Below are positions 2 through 26,337 of a stretch of DNA of 64,000 nucleotides, one piece after another. Position 1 is the first letter of the stretch, and the number at the start of each line of letters is the position of its first letter. Origin of the DNA: Anaeromyxobacter soli. Its GTDB lineage: Bacteria > Myxococcota > Myxococcia > Myxococcales > Anaeromyxobacteraceae. Where the stretch lies: the NCBI RefSeq assembly GCF_022808855.1, contig NZ_JAKZLF010000022.1, forward strand, positions 22,289-86,288, written 5' to 3'. The notes below the pieces were generated by a model. The model worked only from the letters and a program-made list of their open reading frames with translations. It did not search any database and had not been told where the DNA came from. The position numbers and the translations under genes are program-made.

Positions 2-604
2 TCGGGGGTCGAGGAGGCGCTGGCGCCGCGCCTGGGCCGCGCCGCGTCGGAGCCCGCCGCGGCGCTGGCCATCGAGCTCACGGTCACCGCCGGACACGTC
101 TCCGGGCGCGCGCGGCTGCTGCTGCCGCCCGCCGCGCTCCGCGCGCTGCGCGGTGCGCCGGCCTGGGACGGCGCCGCCGCGGGGCTGCGGATGGTGGCCT
201 CGCTGCGCGGCGGCGAGGCCGCGCTCGGGCGCGAGGAGCTCGCCGCGCTCGCGACCGGGGACGTCGTGGTGCTCGACGGCACGGCGGAGCCCAGGGCCCT
301 GGTGCTCCCGGGCGGCGCGCGGCTCGCGGGACGTCTCGAGGATGGAGCCTTTCACGTGGAGGAGATCGACATGACGGATCGGATGGCGCAGCTCCCGGTG
401 GTGCTCGAGGTCGAGCTCGCCCGGGTGGAGGTGACCCTCGCCGAGCTCGCCCGGCTGGAGCCGGGAGCCACCCTGCCGCTCGCGCTCGATCGGCGCGGGA
501 TCGTGACCCTGCGCGCGGGCGAGCGCGCGCTCGGGCGCGGCGAGCTCGTGGACGTGGACGGCGCGATCGGCGTCCGGATCGTGAGCCTCGAGGTGGCGCC
601 GTGA
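2..604 (+). CDS. sctQ: Type III secretion C-ring protein SctQ (YscQ/FliM-FliN like), C-terminal part
   Basis: Cytoplasmic sorting-platform (C-ring) component of a type III export apparatus. The gene is cut by the window edge; reading frame 2 is open from base 2 to the stop at 604, about 200 residues. Two SpoA (surface presentation of antigens) domains can be read in tandem. The first covers roughly residues 63-115 of the fragment. The second is the last 75 residues, with the FliN-like pattern LPVVLEVELARVEVTL and GRGELVDVDGAIGVRI. Tandem SpoA domains in one chain are typical of SctQ of non-flagellar systems, whereas flagella split them between FliM and FliN. The stop overlaps the GTG of the next gene. 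The missing N-terminus leaves FliM or FliN fusion variants possible. Confidence 0.8.
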   Translation, partial: SGVEEALAPRLGRAASEPAAALAIELTVTAGHVSGRARLLLPPAALRALRGAPAWDGAAAGLRMVASLRGGEAALGREELAALATGDVVVLDGTAEPRALVLPGGARLAGRLEDGAFHVEEIDMTDRMAQLPVVLEVELARVEVTLAELARLEPGATLPLALDRRGIVTLRAGERALGRGELVDVDGAIGVRIVSLEVAP

Positions 605-957
605 TCGCCGCATTGCGCCTCGCGGCCGGGAGGTCTCGCCGGCTCGCGCTGCCCATCGCCGGGGCGGCGGTGGTCGCCGCGGCGCTCGCCTTCGCGCCCG
701 GCGGGCTCGGTCCGATCGCGGCCCGCGCCGGCCTCGTGGCCGCCGCGCTCGCGGCCGCGGCCGTCCTCGCGCGCCGCCGCGTGGCCCCTCCGGCGACGAC
801 CGCGCTCGCGCTCGTCTCCCGGGCCTCGCTCGCCCGCGACGCCGGCGTCGCGCTCGTCGAGGTGGACGGTCGGCGACTCGTGGTGGGCTACGGACCTTCG
901 GGGGTCCAGCTCCTCGCCGAATCGCGGAGGGCGTCGCCGGAAGGGAGCGCGCCGTGA
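601..957 (+). CDS. FliO-like small membrane protein of the type III export apparatus
   Basis: 118 residues from a GTG that overlaps the sctQ stop (GTGA). Two hydrophobic stretches, about residues 18-32 and 40-58, are followed by a small cytoplasmic domain reading LVSRASLARDAGVALVEV-DGRRLVVGYGPSGVQLL. This matches the FliO pattern (basic/hydrophobic start, LVEV-GRRLLVG, then VQLL). FliO assists assembly of the FliP (SctR) ring of the flagellar export gate and sits just before fliP in flagellar operons, as this gene sits just before sctR. Non-flagellar type III systems normally lack it, so its presence beside a tandem-SpoA SctQ is unusual. Similarity is judged by eye in a short, low-complexity protein, so confidence is moderate. 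Confidence 0.65.
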   Translation: MIAALRLAAGRSRRLALPIAGAAVVAAALAFAPGGLGPIAARAGLVAAALAAAAVLARRRVAPPATTALALVSRASLARDAGVALVEVDGRRLVVGYGPSGVQLLAESRRASPEGSAP

Positions 958-1628
958 CGCCGCTCGCCCTCGCCGCCGGCCCCGTGGCGGACCGGCCCGC
1001 CGAGCTGCTCGTCCTGCTCGCCGCGCTCGCCGTCGTCCCCGCCGCGCTCGTCATGCTGACCTCGTTCCTCAAGATCGTCGTCGTCCTCTCGATCGCCCGC
1101 TCCGCCCTCGGCGCGCCGCAGGTCCCTCCGAACACGGCGGTCACCGGCCTCGCCCTCGTGCTGACGGCGCTCGTGATGGCGCCGGTCGGCGAGCGCGCGG
1201 TCGCCGCCATGCGCGAGGCCGCCCCCGCGGAGCGCGGGATCGCGGGCACGCTCGCGCAGGTCGAGCGCGGCGCCGAGCCGCTCCGCGGGTTTTTGGCGCG
1301 GTTCGCGCGGCCCGACGATCGCGCCGCGTTCGTGGACGTCGCCCGCCGGCTGCGCGGGCCGGGCGCCACGCCGCCGGGCGAGCAGGAGTTCGCGGTCCTC
1401 GCCCCGGCCTTCGTGGTGTCGGAGCTGCGCCGGGCGTTCACGATCGGCTTCCTCGTGTTCGTCCCGTTCCTCGTCGTCGACCTCGTCGTCTCGAACGTGC
1501 TCCTGGCGCTCGGGCTCACCCAGCTCTCCCCCACCTCCGTCGCCCTGCCCTTCAAGCTCCTCCTCTTCGTCGCCGTCGACGGCTGGAAGCTCCTCGCGCG
1601 CGCGCTCGCGCTCTCGTACGCCGGGTGA
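954..1628 (+). CDS. sctR: Type III export gate protein SctR (FliP/YscR family)
   Basis: 224-residue polytopic inner-membrane protein; five copies form the core of the SctRST export gate. The GTG start overlaps the previous stop. Early residues read LLVLLAALAVVPAALVMLTSFLKIVVVLSI, close to the FliP N-terminal block, then come a central soluble loop (about residues 85-155) and the C-terminal FliP signature PFLVVDLVVSNVLLALG followed by ALPFKLLLFVAVDGW. Length agrees with SctR (about 215-245). Unlike many flagellar FliP proteins there is no long cleavable signal. Lies in the canonical order sctR-S-T-U-V. Confidence 0.95.
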   Translation: MTPLALAAGPVADRPAELLVLLAALAVVPAALVMLTSFLKIVVVLSIARSALGAPQVPPNTAVTGLALVLTALVMAPVGERAVAAMREAAPAERGIAGTLAQVERGAEPLRGFLARFARPDDRAAFVDVARRLRGPGATPPGEQEFAVLAPAFVVSELRRAFTIGFLVFVPFLVVDLVVSNVLLALGLTQLSPTSVALPFKLLLFVAVDGWKLLARALALSYAG

Positions 1629-1900
1629 TCGCCATGGACCCCGCCCTCCTGCACGTCGGCCGCGAGGCGCTCCTCCTCGTCCTCGCGGTGTCCGCGCCGC
1701 CGCTCCTCGCCGCCCTCGCCGTGGGCCTCGTCACCGGCGTCCTCCAGGCGGCGACGCAGATCCAGGAGCCCACCGTCGGCGTCGTGCCGCGGCTCGCGGC
1801 CGTGTTCCTGGCGCTCGCCGTCGCCGCGCCCTGGATCGGCGCGCGCGTCGTCCAGTTCGCCCGCAGCTGCTTCGACCTCCTGCCCCGGATCGCCTCGTGA
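1625..1900 (+). CDS. sctS: Type III export gate protein SctS (FliQ/YscS family)
   Basis: 91 residues with two transmembrane helices (about 15-40 and 55-78), the FliQ/SctS size and topology. The linker motif TGVLQAATQIQEPTVGVVPRL matches the conserved family block. SctS packs around the SctR ring in the export gate helical assembly. GTG at 1625 overlaps the sctR stop; an in-frame ATG at 1634 (MDPALLHVG) is the other possible start. The stop overlaps the GTG of sctT. Confidence 0.93.
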   Translation: MIAMDPALLHVGREALLLVLAVSAPPLLAALAVGLVTGVLQAATQIQEPTVGVVPRLAAVFLALAVAAPWIGARVVQFARSCFDLLPRIAS

Positions 1901-2673
1901 CCCCGCCCTTCCCTCCCGAGCTCGCGGCCCGCGCCCCGGGCGCGCTCCTCGCCGCCCTGCGCCTCCTCCCGGTGGCCCTGGCGTCACCCTTCCTCGGCGG
2001 CCCGCTCGTCCCGCCGGTGGTGCGCGTCGCGCTCGCCGCGGGCCTCGGCGCGGCCGTCTCCGCGGCCGGCGCGGCCCCGGCGGCGACGGACGCGCTCTCG
2101 CTCGCCGCGGGCGGCGTTCGCGAGCTCGCGCTCGGGGCCGTCCTCGCCTTCCTCGTGAGCGCGCCCGTCGAGGCGGCGCGCGCGGCGGGCCGGCTCGCGG
2201 ACACCTTCCGGGGCGCGACGCTGTCCGAGCTGCACGTCGCGCCCATCCGGCAGCGCGAGAGCGCGGCGGGAGACCTCCTCGCGCACTGGGTGGTGGTCCT
2301 CGCCGCGTGGGCGGGCGGCGACCGGCTCGTCGTGCACGGGCTCCTCTCGACCTTCGTGGCGGTGCCGCCGGGGGCGCCCTTCGCGCTCGCCAGGGCGCTC
2401 CCCGCGGTCCTCGCGGCGGCCGCCGAGCTCGTCGCCGCCGCGGTCGCCATCGCGGCGCCCGCCGCCGCGGGCGTCCTCGCCGCGGATCTCGCCGTCGCGC
2501 TCGTCGCGCGCGTCGCGCCCCAGCTCGGCGCCGTCAACGCGGCGCAGCCGGCGCGCGCGGCGCTCGGGCTCCTCGCCCTCGCCGCGAGCGCGGGCGTCGC
2601 GGGCGGTCGGCTCGCCGCGATGGTCGCGCTCTCGGGCAGGACGGTGGAGGCGGTCGCGGGGGTGGCGCCGTGA
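1897..2673 (+). CDS. sctT: Type III export gate protein SctT (FliR/YscT family)
   Basis: 258-residue, very hydrophobic protein with about six predicted membrane segments, the size of FliR/SctT. The segment FRGATLSELHVAPIRQRESAAGDLL corresponds to the conserved block before the fourth membrane helix. SctT provides one subunit to the SctR5-SctS4-SctT1 gate. Its GTG overlaps the sctS stop, and its TGA overlaps the GTG of sctU. Translational coupling of the whole cluster is inferred from these overlaps. Confidence 0.93.
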   Translation: MTPPFPPELAARAPGALLAALRLLPVALASPFLGGPLVPPVVRVALAAGLGAAVSAAGAAPAATDALSLAAGGVRELALGAVLAFLVSAPVEAARAAGRLADTFRGATLSELHVAPIRQRESAAGDLLAHWVVVLAAWAGGDRLVVHGLLSTFVAVPPGAPFALARALPAVLAAAAELVAAAVAIAAPAAAGVLAADLAVALVARVAPQLGAVNAAQPARAALGLLALAASAGVAGGRLAAMVALSGRTVEAVAGVAP

Positions 2674-3701
2674 GCGGCGACCGGACCGAGGCGCCCACCC
2701 CGAGGCGCCTGCGCGAGGCGCGCCGGCGCGGCGAGGTCGCGCAGAGCCGCGAGCTCACCGGCGCCGCGGCGCTCCTCGGCGGGCTCGCCGCGGTGGCCGC
2801 GACCGGCGGCGCCATCGCGCGCGAGCTCGCGACGTTGCTGCGCGTCCAGCTCGCGCAGGCGGCCGACCCCGCCGCCGTCCCGGCCGCGGCGCTCCACGCC
2901 GGGCTCGCCGCCGTGGCGCGCCTCTCGCTCCTTCCGGCCGCCGGCGCCTTCGCGGCGGCCGCCATCGCCGGCGCGCTGCAGGCGGGCTTCACCTTCGCGC
3001 CGGGCGCGCTCGCGCCCCGGGCCGAGCGCGTGAGCCCGATGGCGGGGCTGCGCCGCCTGCTCTCGCCGGTGAGCCTGCTCGCCGTGCCGCTCGGGCTCGC
3101 CAAGGGGGCGGTCCTGCTCGCCGTCGCCCTGGCGTGGCTCCGCGCGGCCGCGCCGGCGCTCGCCGGCCTCTCCCGCCTCGACGCGCGCGCGCTCTGGGGC
3201 GCCGCGCCGCTCCTCCTCGGGCTCGCCGTGCGGCTCGGGGTCGCCTACGCGCTCCTCGGGCTCGCCGATCTCGCGCTCGCGCGCTTCCGCCACCGGCGCG
3301 CGCTCCGCATGACGCGGGACGAGGTCCGCCGCGAGCACAAGGAGGACGAGGGCGACCCCGCGCACCGGTCGGAGCGCCGCCGCCTGCACCGCGCGCTCCT
3401 CGAGGCCGGCGCGGTCTCGCGGGCGACGGTCGTCGTCGTGAACCCGACCCACGTCGCGGTGGCGCTGCGCCACGACCGCGACGGCGAGGCCGCGCCCCGG
3501 CTCGTCGCGAAGGGCACCGGGCTCGCCGCCGCCCGCATCCGCTCCGCGGCGCGGCGCGCGGGCGTGCCGATCGTGCGCGACGTGCCGCTCGCGCGCGCGC
3601 TCCACCGCCTCGCCGAGGTCGGCGACGAGATCCCGGAGGAGCTCTACGAGGCCGCCGCCGCGGTCCTCGCCCACCTGTACGGCCACACGGAGACGCCATG
3701 A
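2670..3701 (+). CDS. sctU: Type III secretion substrate-specificity switch protein SctU (FlhB/YscU family)
   Basis: 343 residues starting at the GTG that overlaps the sctT stop. The start is fixed by the family N-terminus GDRTEAPTPRRLREARRRGEVAQSRE; a longer in-frame ORF upstream lies inside sctT and is not used. Four membrane segments lie in the first ~210 residues, then a basic cytoplasmic linker (RRALRMTRDEVRREHKEDEGDP). The autocleavage motif NPTH is intact at residues 258-261 (bases 3441-3452), so self-cleavage and substrate switching are expected. SctU closes around the gate and controls the order of export. Confidence 0.95.
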   Translation: MSGDRTEAPTPRRLREARRRGEVAQSRELTGAAALLGGLAAVAATGGAIARELATLLRVQLAQAADPAAVPAAALHAGLAAVARLSLLPAAGAFAAAAIAGALQAGFTFAPGALAPRAERVSPMAGLRRLLSPVSLLAVPLGLAKGAVLLAVALAWLRAAAPALAGLSRLDARALWGAAPLLLGLAVRLGVAYALLGLADLALARFRHRRALRMTRDEVRREHKEDEGDPAHRSERRRLHRALLEAGAVSRATVVVVNPTHVAVALRHDRDGEAAPRLVAKGTGLAAARIRSAARRAGVPIVRDVPLARALHRLAEVGDEIPEELYEAAAAVLAHLYGHTETP

Positions 3702-5722
3702 CCCGCCTGCACTCGATCCTCGCCCGCGTCCGCGGCGCCGGCGACGCCGCCTTCGCCGTCGCGGTCCTCGCCGTCGTGCTCCTCCTCGTCGCGCCCGTCC
3801 CGCCCGCGGCGCTCGACGCGCTCCTCGCCCTGAACCTCGCGGTGGCGGCGACGATCCTCGTCGTGACGCTCTTCGCGCGGGACGCGCTCAGGTTCGCGAG
3901 CTTCCCGACCCTCCTGCTCCTCACGACCCTGTTCCGCCTGGCGCTCAACGTCTCGTCGACGCGCCTCGTCCTCTCGCGCGGGGACGCCGGGCGCGTCATC
4001 GAGGCGTTCGGGCGGGTCGTCGTCCAGGGCAACTACGTCGTGGGCGCCGTCGTCTTCGCCATCCTCACGCTCGTGCAGCTCCTCGTCGTCGCCAAGGGCG
4101 CGGAGCGCGTGGCGGAGGTCGCGGCGCGCTTCACGCTCGACGCGCTCCCCGGCAAGCAGATGGCGATCGACGCGGACGTGCGCGCCGGCGCGATCGACGC
4201 GGGCGAGGCGCGCCGGCGGCGCCGGGCGCTCGAGCGGGAGAGCCAGCTGTACGGCGCGATGGACGGCGCGCTCAAGTTCGTGAAGGGCGACGCCATCGCG
4301 GGCGTCGCGATCGTCCTCGTGAACGTGACCGGCGGGCTCGTGGCGGGCGCGCTCCGCGGGATGGACGTCGGTGCGGCGGCGCGCCGGTACGCCCTCCTCG
4401 CCATCGGCGACGGCCTCGTCTCGCAGCTCCCCGCGCTCCTCGTGGCGGTCTCGGCCGGCGTCGCCGTCACGCGGGTGGCCGCCGAGGACGAGGGCGGCTC
4501 GCTCGGCGGCGAGATCGGGCGGCAGCTCGCGGCCGAGCCGGCGGCGCTCGGGACGGTGTCGGCCCTCCTCGCGGCCCTCGCGCTCGCCCCCGGCCTCCCG
4601 GCGGCGCCTTTCGCGGCGCTCTCCGCCGCCGCGGCGGGCGGTGCGTTCCAGCTCGCCCGCCGGCGCGCGCGGCGCTCCGCCGCCGTTCCCGCCGAGGCGG
4701 CCGCGAGCCCCGCCGATCCCTTCGCCGCGCCCGCGCCGGTCGTCCTCGAGCTCGCCGACGATCTCGTGGCGGCCGCGCGCGCGGAAGATGGGCGGGCGAT
4801 GCGCGAGGCGCTCGCGGCGCTCCGCGACCAGCTCTGGCGCGAGCTCGGGGTGCAGGTCCCCGGCGTGGTCCTGCGTCCCGCGCCGCTCCCGCGCGCGGGC
4901 TGGTCGCTCCTCGTCGACGACGTTCCGGTCGCGTCGGGCTCCGCTCCCGAGGGCGAGCTCCTCGCGCTCGTGGCGCCCGAGGAGCTCGCGCTCGTCGGCG
5001 TCGGGGCGACGGCGGCGACGGACCCCGCGAGCGGCCGCCCCGCGGCGCTCGTCGCCGCCGCGGACGCCGCCCGCGCGTCCGCGCTCGGGCCGGTGCTCGG
5101 CCACCTCGAGCGGATCGTCGCCGAGGCGGGCGGAGCGCTGCGCGGCGCGGCGCATCACCTCGTCGGCGTGCAGGAGGCGCAGGCGCTCCTCGACGCGCTC
5201 GAGCCCACCGCGCCCGCGCTCGTCCGCGAGGCGGGCCGCCAGCTCCCGCCCGCGCTCCTCGCCGAGGTCCTGCGCCGGCTCGTCGAGGAGGGCGTGTCCA
5301 TCCGGCCGCTGCGGACGATCCTGGAGGCGATGCTCGAGGCCGGCGGGCCCGCGCGCGGCGCGGCAGCGCTCGCCGAGGCGTGCCGCCGATCGCTCCGGCG
5401 CCACATCGCGCATCGCTTCGGCCGGGGCGGCCCGCTCGCCGCGCTGCTCGTCGATCCCGCCGCCGAGCGCGCGATCCGCGAGGCCCTCGCCGGTGAGGCG
5501 CTCGCCCTCGACCCCTCCGATGCGCGCGCGCTGCTCGACGCGCTGGACGCGGAGACGCGCGGCGGCGCCGAAGCGCCCGTGATCCTTGCGAGTGCGGACG
5601 TCCGGCGGGCGTTGCGCGGGCTCGTGGCGCCGCGCTTCCCGCAGGTCGCGGTGCTCACCTTCGACGAGCTCCCGCCCGAGCAAGAGGTGCGTCCGGTGGG
5701 GCGGCTCGCCCTCGCCGCCTGA
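3698..5722 (+). CDS. sctV: Type III secretion export gate nonameric protein SctV (FlhA/YscV family)
   Basis: 674 residues from the ATG that overlaps the sctU stop (ATGA). The N-terminal half holds about eight membrane helices and the FHIPEP-family block FPTLLLLTTLFRLALNVSSTRLVLSRG. The segment DALPGKQMAIDADVRAGAID is the conserved cytoplasmic loop. The C-terminal ~330 residues form the soluble domain that makes the nonameric ring and docks chaperone-substrate complexes (LVGVQEAQALLDALE, LRRLVEEGVSIRPLRTILEAML). Last gene of the cluster in this window; a terminator-like hairpin follows at 5747. No secretin, needle or translocator gene is visible here. Confidence 0.95.
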   Translation: MTRLHSILARVRGAGDAAFAVAVLAVVLLLVAPVPPAALDALLALNLAVAATILVVTLFARDALRFASFPTLLLLTTLFRLALNVSSTRLVLSRGDAGRVIEAFGRVVVQGNYVVGAVVFAILTLVQLLVVAKGAERVAEVAARFTLDALPGKQMAIDADVRAGAIDAGEARRRRRALERESQLYGAMDGALKFVKGDAIAGVAIVLVNVTGGLVAGALRGMDVGAAARRYALLAIGDGLVSQLPALLVAVSAGVAVTRVAAEDEGGSLGGEIGRQLAAEPAALGTVSALLAALALAPGLPAAPFAALSAAAAGGAFQLARRRARRSAAVPAEAAASPADPFAAPAPVVLELADDLVAAARAEDGRAMREALAALRDQLWRELGVQVPGVVLRPAPLPRAGWSLLVDDVPVASGSAPEGELLALVAPEELALVGVGATAATDPASGRPAALVAAADAARASALGPVLGHLERIVAEAGGALRGAAHHLVGVQEAQALLDALEPTAPALVREAGRQLPPALLAEVLRRLVEEGVSIRPLRTILEAMLEAGGPARGAAALAEACRRSLRRHIAHRFGRGGPLAALLVDPAAERAIREALAGEALALDPSDARALLDALDAETRGGAEAPVILASADVRRALRGLVAPRFPQVAVLTFDELPPEQEVRPVGRLALAA

Positions 5723-19380: not shown

Positions 19381-19472
19381 TCCAGCGCCGCCACGCCGCC
19401 GGTGCGGTGGGCGAGCAGCCGGGATTTCCCTGTGGCATCCAGGGGTTGACCAGGGTATCCGGCACGAGGGCG

Positions 19473-19488
19473 TGGCATGGCCGTTGCT
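19473..19488 (+). promoter_or_regulatory. Sigma-54 (-24/-12) promoter of the type II secretion operon
   Basis: TGGCATG-GCCG-TTGCT matches the RpoN consensus (TGGCAYG-N4-TTGCW) at every key position, with the GG and GC doublets 12 bases apart. Transcription should begin near 19499, only about 11 bases before the gspC ATG at 19510. The promoter contains an ATG at 19477 in the gspC frame, which therefore cannot be the start if this promoter is used. Confidence 0.75.
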
Positions 19489-19509
19489 CCCTCCCCGCGC
19501 GGCGCTCCC

Positions 19510-20508
19510 ATGCTCGACCTCTTCTTCCGCAAGTACGCCTGGACGGCGAACCTCGCGCTGCTGTTCGTGGCGGCGTGGCTCGCAGCCAAGACGGTGAACA
19601 CGCTCGCGGGCGCCGCGATCCGTCCGGAGCCCCGGGCGGACGTCGCGAGCCTCCCCACCGCGCCGCCGCGCCCCACCCTCCCCGCCACGCTCGACGTCGA
19701 CAAGCTCTTCAAGCTCATCGGACAGGAGCCGCCGCGCGAGGTGGAGGCCGACGTCGCGCAGGCGCCGCTCGCCCCCCAGAACTGCGACGATCCGCACGCC
19801 GCGCCGACGAAGAGCGACCTCCGCCTGCAGCTCGTGGTCGGCGTCATCGCCGAGCGGGCGCGCCAGTCCCTCGCGACGATCCTCGACCTCAACACGCGCG
19901 AGGCGAAGGTCGTCGGCGTGGGCGACGAGGTCGGCGGAGCGAGGCTCCTCGGGCTCGAGCGCGTGCGGGACGACGCGGACGCCACCGGGAACGGGTTCCG
20001 CCTCGTCGCCATCGTCTGCAACAAGGGGACGAAGGAGTACCTCGACTTCGAGGGCGGCTCGGCGTTCGCCTCGGGCGGCGAGGCCTCCGGCAACCTCGGC
20101 TTCGCGCCGGTGCCGCCGCCCACGCGCGGCGGGCCCGCGCCGGGTGGCCGCGCGCCCATGGAGGGCGTGCGCGAGGTCGGCCAGAACAAGTACGAGATCG
20201 AGCGCGGCGTCATCGACTCGACGCTCGGCAACCTCAACACCATCGCGACCCAGGCGCGCATCGTGCCGTCCTTCAAGAACGGCGCCGCGAACGGGTTCAA
20301 GCTCTTCTCCATCCAGCCCAACTCGCTCTACGCCTCGATCGGCATCGAGAACGGCGACGTCATCCAGCGGGTGAACGGATACGAGATCAACTCCCCCGAG
20401 AAGGCGCTCGAGCTCTATCAGAAGCTGCGCGAGTCACAGCGCGTGACGATCGAGCTGGAGCGCGGGGGACAGGTCATCCGCAAGGAGTACTCCATCAGCG
20501 GCCCGTGA
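19510..20508 (+). CDS. gspC: Type II secretion inner-membrane protein GspC
   Basis: 332 residues from ATG at 19510; an in-frame ATG at 19477 lies inside the sigma-54 promoter and would place charged residues oddly. The N-terminal anchor (residues 9-30, ANLALLFVAAWLAAKTVN) is followed by a Pro-rich linker, the periplasmic homology region (LRLQLVVGVIAERARQSLATIL) and a C-terminal PDZ-like domain (GFKLFSIQPNSLYASIGIENGDVIQRVNGYEINS). GspC couples the inner-membrane platform to the secretin GspD and helps choose substrates. First gene of a gspC-N operon; gspD starts 20 bases after its stop. Confidence 0.93.
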   Translation: MLDLFFRKYAWTANLALLFVAAWLAAKTVNTLAGAAIRPEPRADVASLPTAPPRPTLPATLDVDKLFKLIGQEPPREVEADVAQAPLAPQNCDDPHAAPTKSDLRLQLVVGVIAERARQSLATILDLNTREAKVVGVGDEVGGARLLGLERVRDDADATGNGFRLVAIVCNKGTKEYLDFEGGSAFASGGEASGNLGFAPVPPPTRGGPAPGGRAPMEGVREVGQNKYEIERGVIDSTLGNLNTIATQARIVPSFKNGAANGFKLFSIQPNSLYASIGIENGDVIQRVNGYEINSPEKALELYQKLRESQRVTIELERGGQVIRKEYSISGP

Positions 20509-20528
20509 CGCAGGGTCGAAAGCCTTCC

Positions 20529-23270
20529 ATGCGCAACCGCCTCGCCACGCTGCTCGTCCTCGTCCCGGCCCTCGTCTCCGCGCAGGTGCCGATCCGTCCT
20601 CCCCCCGGCGGCGACACCGCCGGCCCGCGCCCCGCGCCCCCCCGCCCGCCCGCGACGGCCACGCCCGGCGCGCCACGCCCCGTGACGCCCCCCGTGACGC
20701 CCCCCGGGGCGCAGGGCCAGAACGGGCGCCCGGCTCGCCCGGCGGCGCAGCAGCCCCAGCAGCCGCAGACGTTCCGCCCCGCGGAGCGCTGCGTCCCGAT
20801 GCAGGGGCGCTTCATGCTGCAGTTCAACAAGGCCGACATCGCCGACGTGCTCGAGCAGGCGAGCCGCTGGACCTGCCGGAACTTCATGTTCACGGAGGAC
20901 GTGGCGCGCGGGAAGATCACGCTCCTCTCGAAGACGCCGGTGACCGCGGAGGAGGCGTACGCGGCGTTCATCGCGGCGCTCAACTCGAACAACATCAGCG
21001 TGTACCCGACGGGCAAGTACTTCAAGCTCGTCCGGACCGCCGACGCGAAGAAGAACCCGATCCCCACCTACGTGGGCGATCAGGCGACGCCGTACAGCGA
21101 GCAGCCGATCACGAAGGTGATCCGCCTGAACTTCGCGGACGCCGATCAGCTCCGCGGGATCATGGGTAACTTCATCTCGCCCCAGGGCGCGGACATCCAG
21201 GCGATCCCGCCCAACATGCTGATCGTCACGGACATCGGCCTCAACATCCGGCGCATCGAGCGGCTCATCGAGGCCATCGACCGCGCCGGCGCGGGCGAGC
21301 TCGTGCGCATCGTGCAGATCCGCTTCGCGTCGGCGAAGGACATCGCCGACAAGGTGAACCAGATCTTCCAGGCGCAGCAGGGCGGCGCGCGCGGCGCGGG
21401 GCGGAGCCGCACCGTGCTCTCCTCGCCGACCTCGCCGGCCCGGCCGGGCGCCATCCCGCCGCGCCCGCCGCAGGCGGCCCCGGACGTGTCCGGCTCCGTG
21501 GAGGTGTCGGTCTCCAAGGTCCTCCCCGACGAGCGGACGAACAAGCTCATCGTGATCGCGGACGAGAAGAGCTTCCAGCGGCTCATGGAGCTCATCGAGC
21601 AGCTCGACGTGCCGACGAGCGCGGAGGGCGGCATCCACGTCGTGTTCCTCAAGAACGCGAACGCGGAGGAGCTCGCGCAGACACTGTCGAACCTCGCCCA
21701 GGGCACGGCGGCCGGGAAGCGCACCGGCACCACCGCGCCCGGCGCTCCCGGCGCGCCCGGCGGGCTCTCGCCGACGCCCGTCCCCACCGCCATGGGCACG
21801 CAGCCCGGGGCGCCGCCGTCCGCGCGCCCGGGCGGCGCCTCGGACGTGACCGCGTCGCTCTTCAGCGGCGACGTGAAGGTCACCGCGGACAAGGCGCAGA
21901 ACGCCCTCCTCGTGCAGGCGAGCGGCGCCGACTTCCAGGCCATCCAGCGGCTCGTGGAGAAGCTCGACCGGCCGCGCCGGCAGGTGTTCGTCGAGGCCGT
22001 GATCATGGAGGTGAACCTCAACGACTCGACCCAGTTCGGCGTGGGGGCGCACGGCGTCGTCCCGGTGGACTACAAGGGCGAGAAGGGCTTCATCCCGCTG
22101 GCGTCGGAGCCGGGGCGCGTCTCCTCCTTCAACCTCAACAACGTCATCTCGCTCGGCGGGTTCCTGACCGGCTTCAACGGCCCCTCCTCCGGGGTCGTCG
22201 AGGATCTCCTCGGCGTGAAGCTCCCGTCGCTCGGGATCCTCGTCCAGGCGCTGCAGTCGAGCTCGGACGTGAACGTGCTGTCGACCCCTCACATCCTCGC
22301 CTCGGACAACGAGGAGTCGGAGATCACGGTCGGACAGAACGTGCCGTTCCAGGCGGGCTTCGCGCCGCAGGGGCTCTCCAACCTGCTGTCCGGGACCACC
22401 GGCGGGACGTCGGCGCTCGGCTCGACGCTCGGCATCGGCGGGCTCTCCTCGCTCTACGCGCCGATCCAGCGGCAGAACGTGGAGCTCCGGCTCAAGATCA
22501 AGCCGCAGATCAACGAGGGCGGCAACGTCCGGCTGGCGATCGAGGAGCAGACCGAGGAGATCGTCGACCGCGACACGCAGCTCGGCCCCACGACCGCGAA
22601 GCGCAGCGCGAAGACGCTCATCGTGGCGAAGGACCAGAGCACCATCGTCATCGGCGGCCTCATCCAGGAGCGGAACGTCCGCAGCGTCAAGAAGATCCCG
22701 GTCCTCGGCAGCCTGCCGATCTTCGGCTGGCTCTTCCGCGACACGACCACCACGAAGCAGAAGACGAACCTGCTCCTCTTCCTCACGCCGTACATCATCC
22801 GGGACGAGACGGACTACCGGCGCATCTACGAGCGCAAGCGCAAGGAGCAGCAGGACTTCATCGAGCAGTTCTACGGACGGCAGCCGAGCTACCAGGTCGC
22901 GGTCGACTTCACGCGCAAGGCCGGGCCGTACTCGAAGATCCGGGCGGGCGTGTCGGAGGAGTCCCTGAAGCTCGAGAACGGCGGCACGGGCGCGCCGGGC
23001 GAGCGGCTCATCGCGCCGCCGACCGGAGCGCCCCGGCCCGAGCGGGCACCCGCGACGCCCGGGGAGCAGGACGGCGCGCCGACCGAGCCCGAGTCCGGCG
23101 TCGCGCCCGGCGACGGGGAGCCCAGCGCCGGGGAGCGTCTCGAGGTCCAGCCCGAGGCGCCCGCGCCGGGCGAGGCCGCGCCCCCCGCGCCGCCGTACGG
23201 CGGTGGGCCGCCCGCGGGGCAGCCTCAGCAGCCGCAACCGCAGCCGCAGCCGCAGCCGCCGGAGGAATGA
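20529..23270 (+). CDS. gspD: Type II secretion outer-membrane secretin GspD
   Basis: 913 residues from ATG at 20529. Signal peptide of about 19 residues (MRNRLATLLVLVPALVSA). A Pro/Ala-rich linker precedes the N0 domain (GRFMLQFNKADIADVLEQAS), then N1 (VIRLNFADADQLRGIMGN), N2 and N3 (IHVVFLKNANAEELAQTLSNL). The secretin domain begins near VFVEAVIMEVNLNDSTQFG and ends in IPVLGSLPIFGWLFRD and KTNLLLFLTPYIIRD. The last ~110 residues are a Pro/Gln-rich tail ending in repeated QP units. Forms the gated outer-membrane channel. The upstream in-frame ORF belongs to another reading of gspC and was left out. Confidence 0.96.
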   Translation: MRNRLATLLVLVPALVSAQVPIRPPPGGDTAGPRPAPPRPPATATPGAPRPVTPPVTPPGAQGQNGRPARPAAQQPQQPQTFRPAERCVPMQGRFMLQFNKADIADVLEQASRWTCRNFMFTEDVARGKITLLSKTPVTAEEAYAAFIAALNSNNISVYPTGKYFKLVRTADAKKNPIPTYVGDQATPYSEQPITKVIRLNFADADQLRGIMGNFISPQGADIQAIPPNMLIVTDIGLNIRRIERLIEAIDRAGAGELVRIVQIRFASAKDIADKVNQIFQAQQGGARGAGRSRTVLSSPTSPARPGAIPPRPPQAAPDVSGSVEVSVSKVLPDERTNKLIVIADEKSFQRLMELIEQLDVPTSAEGGIHVVFLKNANAEELAQTLSNLAQGTAAGKRTGTTAPGAPGAPGGLSPTPVPTAMGTQPGAPPSARPGGASDVTASLFSGDVKVTADKAQNALLVQASGADFQAIQRLVEKLDRPRRQVFVEAVIMEVNLNDSTQFGVGAHGVVPVDYKGEKGFIPLASEPGRVSSFNLNNVISLGGFLTGFNGPSSGVVEDLLGVKLPSLGILVQALQSSSDVNVLSTPHILASDNEESEITVGQNVPFQAGFAPQGLSNLLSGTTGGTSALGSTLGIGGLSSLYAPIQRQNVELRLKIKPQINEGGNVRLAIEEQTEEIVDRDTQLGPTTAKRSAKTLIVAKDQSTIVIGGLIQERNVRSVKKIPVLGSLPIFGWLFRDTTTTKQKTNLLLFLTPYIIRDETDYRRIYERKRKEQQDFIEQFYGRQPSYQVAVDFTRKAGPYSKIRAGVSEESLKLENGGTGAPGERLIAPPTGAPRPERAPATPGEQDGAPTEPESGVAPGDGEPSAGERLEVQPEAPAPGEAAPPAPPYGGGPPAGQPQQPQPQPQPQPPEE

Positions 23271-23304
23271 TCGGACGCGCCGCGCCCGTTGCACGAGATC
23301 TGCC

Positions 23305-25104
<1,800 letters not shown>

Positions 25105-25107
25105 GCC

Positions 25108-26337
25108 ATGCCGGTCTTCCAGTACAAGGCGCTCAACGCCGCCGGCAAGGCGGTGCAGGGGCTCAAGGAGGCGGACTCGCCGAAGACGCTCCGCGCGAAC
25201 CTCCGCCGCGAGGGCGTGTTCCTCACCGAGGTGCTCGGCGAGGCGCAGGCGAAGGAGCAGGCGAAGCGCGAGGTGAACGTCCGCCGCTGGGTGCTCGGGC
25301 GCGTCGGCGCGCGCGACCTCGCCGTCGCGACCCGCCAGCTCGCCGTGCTCGCGCACGCCGGCATCCCGCTCGTCGAGGCCCTCACCGCCCTCGTCGACCA
25401 GGTCGAGCACGAGCGGCTGAAGCGGGTGCTCGGCGACGTGAAGCAGCGGGTCAACGAGGGCAGCTCCCTCGCCGACGCGCTGGCCGTCCACCCGCGCGTC
25501 TTCTCCACGCTCTACGTGAACATGATCCGCGCCGGGGAGAGCTCGGGCGCGCTCGAGATCGTCCTCGTGCGGCTCGCCGAGTTCACCGAGAGCCAGGCGC
25601 GGCTCCGCTCCAAGATCGCGGGCACGATGGCCTACCCGATCGCGATGATGGTCATCGGGACCGGGATCATGGGCATCCTCTTCACCGTCGTGATCCCCAA
25701 GATCACCTCGATCTTCGAGAACACCAGCGCGACCCTCCCCTGGTACACCCAGGTGACCATCGGCATCTCGTCGTTCGCGTCGCGCTGGTGGTGGGCGATC
25801 CTGCTCGCCGGCGTGGCGGCGGTCTACGGCCTGGCGCGCTGGCGGCGGACGCCGGCCGGGCGCGCCGCCTGGGATCGCGCCGCGCTCCGGGCGCCCATCT
25901 TCGGCCCCATCATCCGGCAGATCGCCATCGGCCGGTTCGCGCGGACGCTCTCGACGCTGCTCAAGAGCGGCGTCCCGCTCCTCACCGCCATGGACATCGT
26001 GAAGAACATCCTCGGGAACACGCGCCTCGCGGAGGTCATCGAGCAGGCCCGCGACGCCATCCGCGAGGGTGAGTCCATCGCCGCGCCCCTCAAGCGCTCC
26101 GGCGAGTTCCCGCCGCTCGTGCACCACATGGTCGCGATCGGCGAGCGCTCCGGCGCGCTGGAGGAGATGCTCGCGAACGTCGCCGACGCCTACGAAGACC
26201 AGGTCGAGACGACCATCGCCGCGCTCACGTCGCTGCTCGAGCCGGTGATGATCGTCGCGATGGGCGGCGTCGTCGCCTTCATCGTCTTCTCCGTCCTCAT
26301 GCCGATCCTCCAGATCAACAACCTCGTAGGAGGCTGA
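25108..26337 (+). CDS. gspF: Type II secretion inner-membrane platform protein GspF
   Basis: 409 residues, standard length. Starts MPVFQYKALNAAGKAVQG, the family N-terminus. Two T2SSF domains flank the membrane helices (TRQLAVLAHAGIPLVEAL and ARTLSTLLKSGVPLLTAM), with three transmembrane segments around residues 172-196, 222-245 and 375-400 and the closing motif LEPVMIVAMGGVVAFIVFSVLMPI. It links the ATPase GspE to the growing pseudopilus. Confidence 0.97.
   Translation: MPVFQYKALNAAGKAVQGLKEADSPKTLRANLRREGVFLTEVLGEAQAKEQAKREVNVRRWVLGRVGARDLAVATRQLAVLAHAGIPLVEALTALVDQVEHERLKRVLGDVKQRVNEGSSLADALAVHPRVFSTLYVNMIRAGESSGALEIVLVRLAEFTESQARLRSKIAGTMAYPIAMMVIGTGIMGILFTVVIPKITSIFENTSATLPWYTQVTIGISSFASRWWWAILLAGVAAVYGLARWRRTPAGRAAWDRAALRAPIFGPIIRQIAIGRFARTLSTLLKSGVPLLTAMDIVKNILGNTRLAEVIEQARDAIREGESIAAPLKRSGEFPPLVHHMVAIGERSGALEEMLANVADAYEDQVETTIAALTSLLEPVMIVAMGGVVAFIVFSVLMPILQINNLVGG

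Follow-up and report, generated by a model that had tools for sequence, protein, structure and literature searches.

Introduction

It has long been asked how the export gate of the flagellum was converted into that of an injection machine, and the systems of myxobacteria have been proposed as living intermediates. The short and long systems of Myxococcota were described by Abby & Rocha (2012; PMC3459982) as early non-flagellar type III secretion systems (T3SSs), and a myxobacterial intermediate was published there. The myxobacterial T3SS* is called needleless in papers up to 2025 (PMC10433427, PMC10849154, PMC11509652, PMC12075869), and for Myxococcus, channel sharing of T3SS* with the Kil (Tad) pilus has been proposed before in other words. 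FliO, which in the flagellum has a role in assembly of the FliP ring, is reported to be frequent in the Myxococcota systems termed vT3SS, both systems of M. xanthus included, and to occur in some Pseudomonadota injectisomes as well (PMC12403147; PNAS 2025). Here, we analyse a T3SS gene cluster at the left edge of a 64,000-nucleotide stretch of Anaeromyxobacter soli DNA. This whole stretch, C15:22289–86288, is referred to as the window, with window base 1 at C15:22289; the genome comprises 5.3 Mb in 80 contigs and is listed as 100% complete.

We conclude, with a probability of roughly 0.68, that this short-type cluster of an Anaeromyxobacter relative lacking rod genes keeps a FliO-domain protein, and that the protein encoded directly before sctI, here called X, is a predicted exported subunit of the needle class. 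The FliO half of this finding is already published (PMC12403147) and is confirmed here at one further locus and in 57/57 loci.

Layout of the cluster

An earlier note on this DNA placed the cluster at window positions 2–5722. These coordinates are correct, with base 2 cutting through sctQ, and the cluster itself starts at C15:19963, left of the window. The gene order is X–I–J–(small open reading frame, ORF)–Q–FliO–R–S–T–U–V:

C15:19963–20385, left of window base 1: X, needle-class candidate, 140 amino acids, directly before sctI–sctJ
C15:20393–20737, left of the window: sctI-like gene, 114 amino acids, weak match
C15:20749–21468, left of the window: sctJ, 239 amino acids, short lipoprotein of the SctJ type
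C15:21465–21791, left of the window: small unnamed ORF
C15:21861–22892 (whole gene; 3' part at 2–604 of the window), plus strand: sctQ, 343 amino acids, two SpoA-type stretches in one chain
601–957, plus strand: fliO, 118 amino acids, PF04347 above the curated cut-off
954–1628, plus strand: sctR, PF00813 (5.3e-63), SctR models best
1625–1900, plus strand: sctS, PF01313 (3.7e-25), FliQ model slightly above SctS
1897–2673, plus strand: sctT, PF01311 (1.6e-27), SctT model best
2670–3701, plus strand: sctU, PF01312 (9e-92), SctU model best
3698–5722, plus strand: sctV, PF00771 (7.8e-191), SctV model best

Genes resembling sctL, sctN and sctO lie in one row on another contig (C50:15219–17586; L089), separate from the gate genes. 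The distance between SctN and SctR is 1.0–2.4 Mb in five one-contig genomes of the family (G031, G032, G033, G035 and G041), so the split between sctN and the gate is not an effect of the assembly. The divergent left neighbour of X (C15:18506–19819, minus strand) is a PF08014 protein (5e-112), a family that bears the Pfam name microtubule-associated tyrosine carboxypeptidase, and is not flagellar.

X as a candidate needle-class subunit

A position before sctI–sctJ is that of the needle gene in the known order prgI–prgJ–prgK. Relatives for comparison were obtained by a scan of genome contigs with SctV, in which 80 of 555 relatives were kept and the flagellar-looking ones used as outgroups only, and X loci were collected with an iterative profile started from the X of this cluster. 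In 34 of the 42 loci that contain SctI, X lies upstream of it at a distance of no more than 4 kb. The remaining eight are long loci in which the fetched stretch ends 8–800 bases upstream of SctI, and X is thus present in 34/34 loci with room for it. When the long locus of G086 (L248) was extended, X came into view, with SctI about 2.2 kb downstream of it. Two further stretches, L254 and L255, also show X upstream of SctI.

A compact second form of X, 72–75 amino acids in length, is encoded in long loci, either following sctU with a short SctU-like gene behind it, or close by on the opposite strand. It occurs in tandem, with four copies in L203 and L205 and three in L207, L208 and L213. The copies differ by 0/216 nucleotides in L203 (three of four compared), by 1–2 in L207, by 0–5 in L208 and by 0–12/219 in L205. 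The presence of three to four near-identical copies in the long loci of Myxococcaceae is as expected for a subunit needed in bulk. The profiles of short and long X align with a probability of 96.6%, compared with 1.0% or less for the SctI, SctL, SctO, SctK and FliO controls. Among the close database relatives of X that bear the name of their source, most are annotated 'hypothetical protein'. A second, short SctU-like match (about 140–163 bits) after sctU is seen in the long loci L203, L205, L207, L208, L211, L213, L215, L216, L221, L223, L226, L227 and L236. In L207, the interval from the SctU-like genes to the X copies (positions 1859–3507) holds a 160-amino-acid ORF, a TPR protein (158 amino acids) and a 201-amino-acid ORF; unlike the TPR protein, the two ORFs match no family.

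Similarity to needle subunits is seen at the level of families, profiles and predicted fold. PF09392 (T3SS_needle_F; Pfam cut-off 29.4 bits) is matched by 6/13 long X proteins (best 3.8e-5), by 12/40 database relatives of X (best 4.5e-5) and by all five further X-type proteins scanned. Two X-type proteins pass the cut-off, those of L247 (30.4 bits; in a long locus, with sctU and sctV on either side) and L249 (30.7 bits), while most other X proteins score below it. Three X proteins encoded before sctI match PF09392 at 8.5e-4 to 2.3e-3 and have no better family, and HrpA_pilin is matched by 6/19 short X proteins (best 6.3e-4). The gene for the X-type protein of L249 lies close to the end of a contig, at a distance from all gate clusters seen.

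Among 24,097 frames of 154 loci, the X model gives one match outside Myxococcota at E ≤ 1e-3, which is an annotated needle major subunit on a Nitratidesulfovibrio plasmid. With the pooled X model, needle proteins fill the first 15 non-myxobacterial places, the next E being 0.18. Two of these places belong to the Nitratidesulfovibrio needle protein, which was included both as a frame and as an added protein, 12 to its homologues and one to a needle-family protein of Pseudovibrio (E = 0.0051), so that the 15 places amount to two independent witnesses. Aligned with a widened needle profile, pooled X reaches a probability of 95.0% (3.8e-8), compared with 0.4% or less for the SctL, SctO and FliO controls. 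The best Protein Data Bank sequence for the compact X profile is chain F of entry 7y6c (E = 0.0013), and we infer that this 43-amino-acid chain is a needle fragment. The compact X of relatives, at 72–75 amino acids, falls within the range of about 70–85 expected of a needle hairpin, and its model has two predicted helices (residues 2–28 and 31–71) joined by a short turn, with a predicted local distance difference test score of 72.

Across 195 Myxococcota genomes, 121 match PF09392 at E ≤ 1 and two pass the cut-off, and 3/14 control genomes also match at E ≤ 1. Of the 39 genome matches with E < 0.01, at least 16, counted by eye, are no more than 20 kb away from a place of SctR, FliO or FHIPEP (p = 1.6e-17 on an assumed 2% background), which leaves at most 23 others. 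HrpA_pilin has no match in the 195 genomes and none in the controls, and is therefore uninformative. Used as a test of presence, PF09392 is matched in 3/36 genomes and records and in one of four T3SS plasmid records; a missing match is therefore no proof of a missing needle.

Several observations weigh against a needle-class assignment. The X of this cluster falls below every needle and pilin cut-off (HrpA_pilin at 0.11, with DUF3947 ahead at 0.017), and PF09392 matches neither this X nor anything else in its genome. Alignment of X with a narrow needle set using hhalign gives 0.5–2.4%, and with the widened set short X alone reaches 43.4% and long X alone 30.4%. SctI scores 61.7% against the widened needle profile, such that X and the inner rod are not cleanly separated. 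Other families compete: SAM_KSR1 matches 13/40 long-X relatives, about as many as PF09392, with a weaker E (2.4e-3), and DUF4142 reaches 2.5e-4 on X relatives. Foldseek and VIA-align searches with long X return unrelated helical hairpins and list no needle, and the confidence of the models is modest (predicted template modelling score 0.41 for long X and 0.28 for short X). The needle reference proteins consist of one close group and two others, one of which (L261) is not found by the model, and neither a needle-family protein from Photobacterium nor a small ORF from Rhizobium (added as a guess) is among the first 25 places of the pooled X model. Finally, entry 7y6c is labelled needle co-chaperone.

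It is conceivable, but on balance unlikely, that X is a T3SS-exported protein that has a needle-type C-terminal helix without being the needle: a translocator, a harpin-like protein, a substrate directed at prey or another protein of the inner rod beside SctI. Such a role would suit the X-type proteins of 170–245 amino acids in which the needle-like C-terminal helix is preceded by a long N-terminal part (L215, L223, L236, L247, L249 and L250), the Ala/Gly-rich N-terminal half of the X studied here, which is modelled with low confidence, and the fact that SctI, too, is similar to the needle profile. It is at odds with the presence of SctI beside X, with compact forms that have the size of a needle subunit and a predicted hairpin, and with the tandem near-identical copies. 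Because the needle profile resembles SctI, the evidence speaks more strongly for a needle-or-rod class than for the needle alone; the gene order, with SctI next door, then tips the balance to the needle.

If X is a needle-class subunit, the gate would export both SctI and X, and the two are predicted to form a rod and a needle by stacking. After passing the gate, X would stack up on the base formed by SctI and SctJ, giving a short needle or a rod in the periplasm. In a system with no secretin of its own, this rod would stay periplasmic or borrow the outer-membrane channel of another system. At slightly better than even odds, this extends to the 'needleless' myxobacterial T3SS in general, which would have a diverged SctF-class family consisting of X1 before sctI and, in long loci, X2 in three to four near-identical tandem copies. 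FliO, fused SctQ and the needle would then have preceded the secretin, and the needle would work in the periplasm or reach prey via the Tad (Kil) channel. In the open literature searched, we found no needle-class family in myxobacterial T3SSs.

A FliO-domain protein between SctQ and SctR

The earlier note had read the gene between sctQ and sctR as FliO, and this reading holds: the 601–957 product matches PF04347 with 32.4 bits (1e-7), above the curated cut-off of 22. It is the sole FliO match in its genome at E ≤ 0.001 (33.8 bits). Against TIGR03500, the NCBI equivalog model for flagellar FliO, it scores 37.7 bits and the cut-off of 55.25 is not reached; we therefore class it as a FliO-domain protein and not as a flagellar FliO equivalog.

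A total of 61 loci, this one and 60 fetched, were inspected for the position of the gene. FliO stands between Q and R in 57/57 loci that reach both, 53 of them non-flagellar or unassigned and four flagellar, and PF04347 is matched at E ≤ 0.01 by 53 of the 57 intervening proteins scanned (that of the window and 56 from fetched loci). In three classical loci in which sctQ adjoins sctR (L257–L259) the FliO model finds nothing; the genes overlap and leave no room. Five loci of unassigned type (L228–L232, from G010, G013, G169, G170 and G180) contain FliO, R, S and T, but neither SctU nor SctV is matched in full close by in the sequence read.

By analogy with FliO and FliP, the protein likely helps SctR to assemble. 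It would act early in the inner membrane, chaperoning the SctR ring transiently.

Retention from a flagellar ancestor has to be weighed against regain of FliO from a flagellar system after the injectisome had split off. Some members of the genus are flagellated and have their own FliO (G031 has two FHIPEP and two FliO matches), and the FliO tree is poorly resolved; with 86 columns, it has too few to tell retention from an old regain, which also counts against calling the system an intermediate. The FliO proteins of the non-flagellar short (support 81) and long (support 97) types nevertheless each form one group, as in the gate tree, the test does not reject a single clade uniting every non-flagellar FliO (p = 0.42), and the place of FliO between Q and R is the same throughout the loci read. 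We consider regain to be distinctly improbable.

Phylogeny of the export gate

A gate tree was calculated from R, S, T and U of 54 loci with a quick search and was rooted from the flagella; the program warns of uneven amino-acid composition in many rows. All non-flagellar loci, including this one and the classical injectisomes, form one group with a support of 100, apart from flagella. Within it, 16 short loci form one group (support 100), as do 12 long loci together with three unassigned Myxococcota loci (support 99). The short and long myxobacterial groups join with a support of 90 and are sister to three classical loci.

This position fits a presumed early-branching lineage in which FliO has been kept. 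The earlier note had gone further and proposed that the combination of a tandem-SpoA SctQ and FliO is an intermediate state of the transition. The proposal agrees with the early branch in the tree; it is weakened by its dependence on three FliO-less classical loci and an assumed, flagella-derived root, and by the weak FliO tree. FliO is kept here, but it is not by itself a marker of an intermediate state, because some Pseudomonadota injectisomes also have it (PMC12403147), and neither element of the proposal is new (PMC3459982, PMC12403147).

Non-flagellar identity of the cluster

The Q, R, T, U and V proteins of the cluster score higher with the injectisome (Sct) models than with the flagellar (Fli/Flh) ones, the opposite being the case for SctS (FliQ model 82.6 bits versus SctS model 73.8 bits). 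Nearly all gate-protein scores remain under the equivalog cut-offs, with the exception of the SctR subfamily model (245.3 bits, cut-off 179). The best model for SctQ is TIGR02551, at 88.0 bits under its cut-off of 100.8. FliMN_C is matched in two stretches of the SctQ fragment in the window, which fits the two SpoA domains in one chain that had been noted from the letters alone.

The genome encodes three secretins, none of which scores best as SctC or is of the T3SS type. The first is GspD (526.4 bits, cut-off 351.35), located inside the window 16.5 kb to the right of sctV, where GspD, GspE and GspF of type II secretion occupy 19407–26337, all above their NCBI cut-offs. The second is PilQ (449.5 bits, cut-off 284.35) in a type IV pilus locus, and the third, under every secretin cut-off, lies near a TadA-type ATPase in a Tad-type locus.

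The cluster is thus the 'short' myxobacterial non-flagellar T3SS of Abby & Rocha (2012): it has the gate genes R–V, SctJ, SctI (as a weak match) and an ATPase, lacks rod and hook genes and a dedicated secretin, and its gate groups with myxobacterial loci adjoining the classical injectisomes.

The same gene inventory could be seen as that of a decaying relic, as which the M. xanthus loci were once annotated. There is no T3SS secretin, SctD was not seen, though no search aimed at SctD was made, and the ATPase genes are unlinked to the gate. The frames are, however, open and their order is common throughout the family, the unlinked ATPase is itself conserved, and T3SS* of M. xanthus is required for prey lysis (PMC12075869), which makes decay very improbable. 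An ordinary flagellar export cluster, for which only the presence of FliO and the slightly better FliQ score of SctS would speak, is rejected with near certainty: the rod/hook family PF00460 has no match in the genome (the same search is positive in 4/14 control genomes), there is one FHIPEP gene, no flagellar set of the kind considered in the earlier note lies to the left or elsewhere in the genome, SctJ is a short lipoprotein and SctQ is fused, and the tree places the gate with classical injectisomes.

The two gates of Myxococcaceae may be served by a single ATPase, which we offer as a lead. Exactly two SctR-like and two FHIPEP matches are present in 64 Myxococcaceae-type (f6) genomes. A single SctN-type match at E ≤ 1e-60 is seen in 62 of them, as counted by eye among at most 12 candidates scored per genome; of the other two, G084 has none and G152 has two, together with a flagellar-type FHIPEP. 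In the long loci read, the T3SS ATPase gene lies in the long locus, and the short gate may share it.

Comparison with known systems

Two traits assigned to the proposed myxobacterial intermediate between flagellum and injectisome would need to be revised: FliO was kept, and a needle-class subunit was probably present before the secretin. X1, X2 and fliO are concrete genes with which to ask how T3SS* reaches prey in predatory myxobacteria.

The closest described system is the short T3SS of Myxococcota (PMC3459982), found across Cystobacterineae including Anaeromyxobacter. It shares with this cluster the gate genes, SctI, SctJ, a conserved order and the lack of a secretin and of flagellar rod genes. 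SctF is said there to be missing, and the account of these systems names neither FliO nor X, whereas a needle-class candidate precedes sctI here. The Myxococcota vT3SSs of PMC12403147 likewise encode FliO in a non-flagellar T3SS. The parts of that paper devoted to FliO do not treat needle genes or name the present genome. The T3SS* of M. xanthus (MXAN_2434–2464; PMC12075869, PMC10433427), which we infer to be of the long type, has I, J, L, N, Q, R–V, a TPR chaperone and FliO, as do our long-type loci; it is said to be without needle homologues, whereas the long-type loci hold X1 and X2. Compared with the needle subunits SctF, YscF and EscF (PF09392), the X of this cluster differs in its 140 residues, its Ala/Gly-rich N-terminal half, its scores below every family cut-off and the lack of a T3SS secretin alongside. 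X resembles these subunits in the predicted helical hairpin of its compact form, in its position before sctI–sctJ and in profile similarity.

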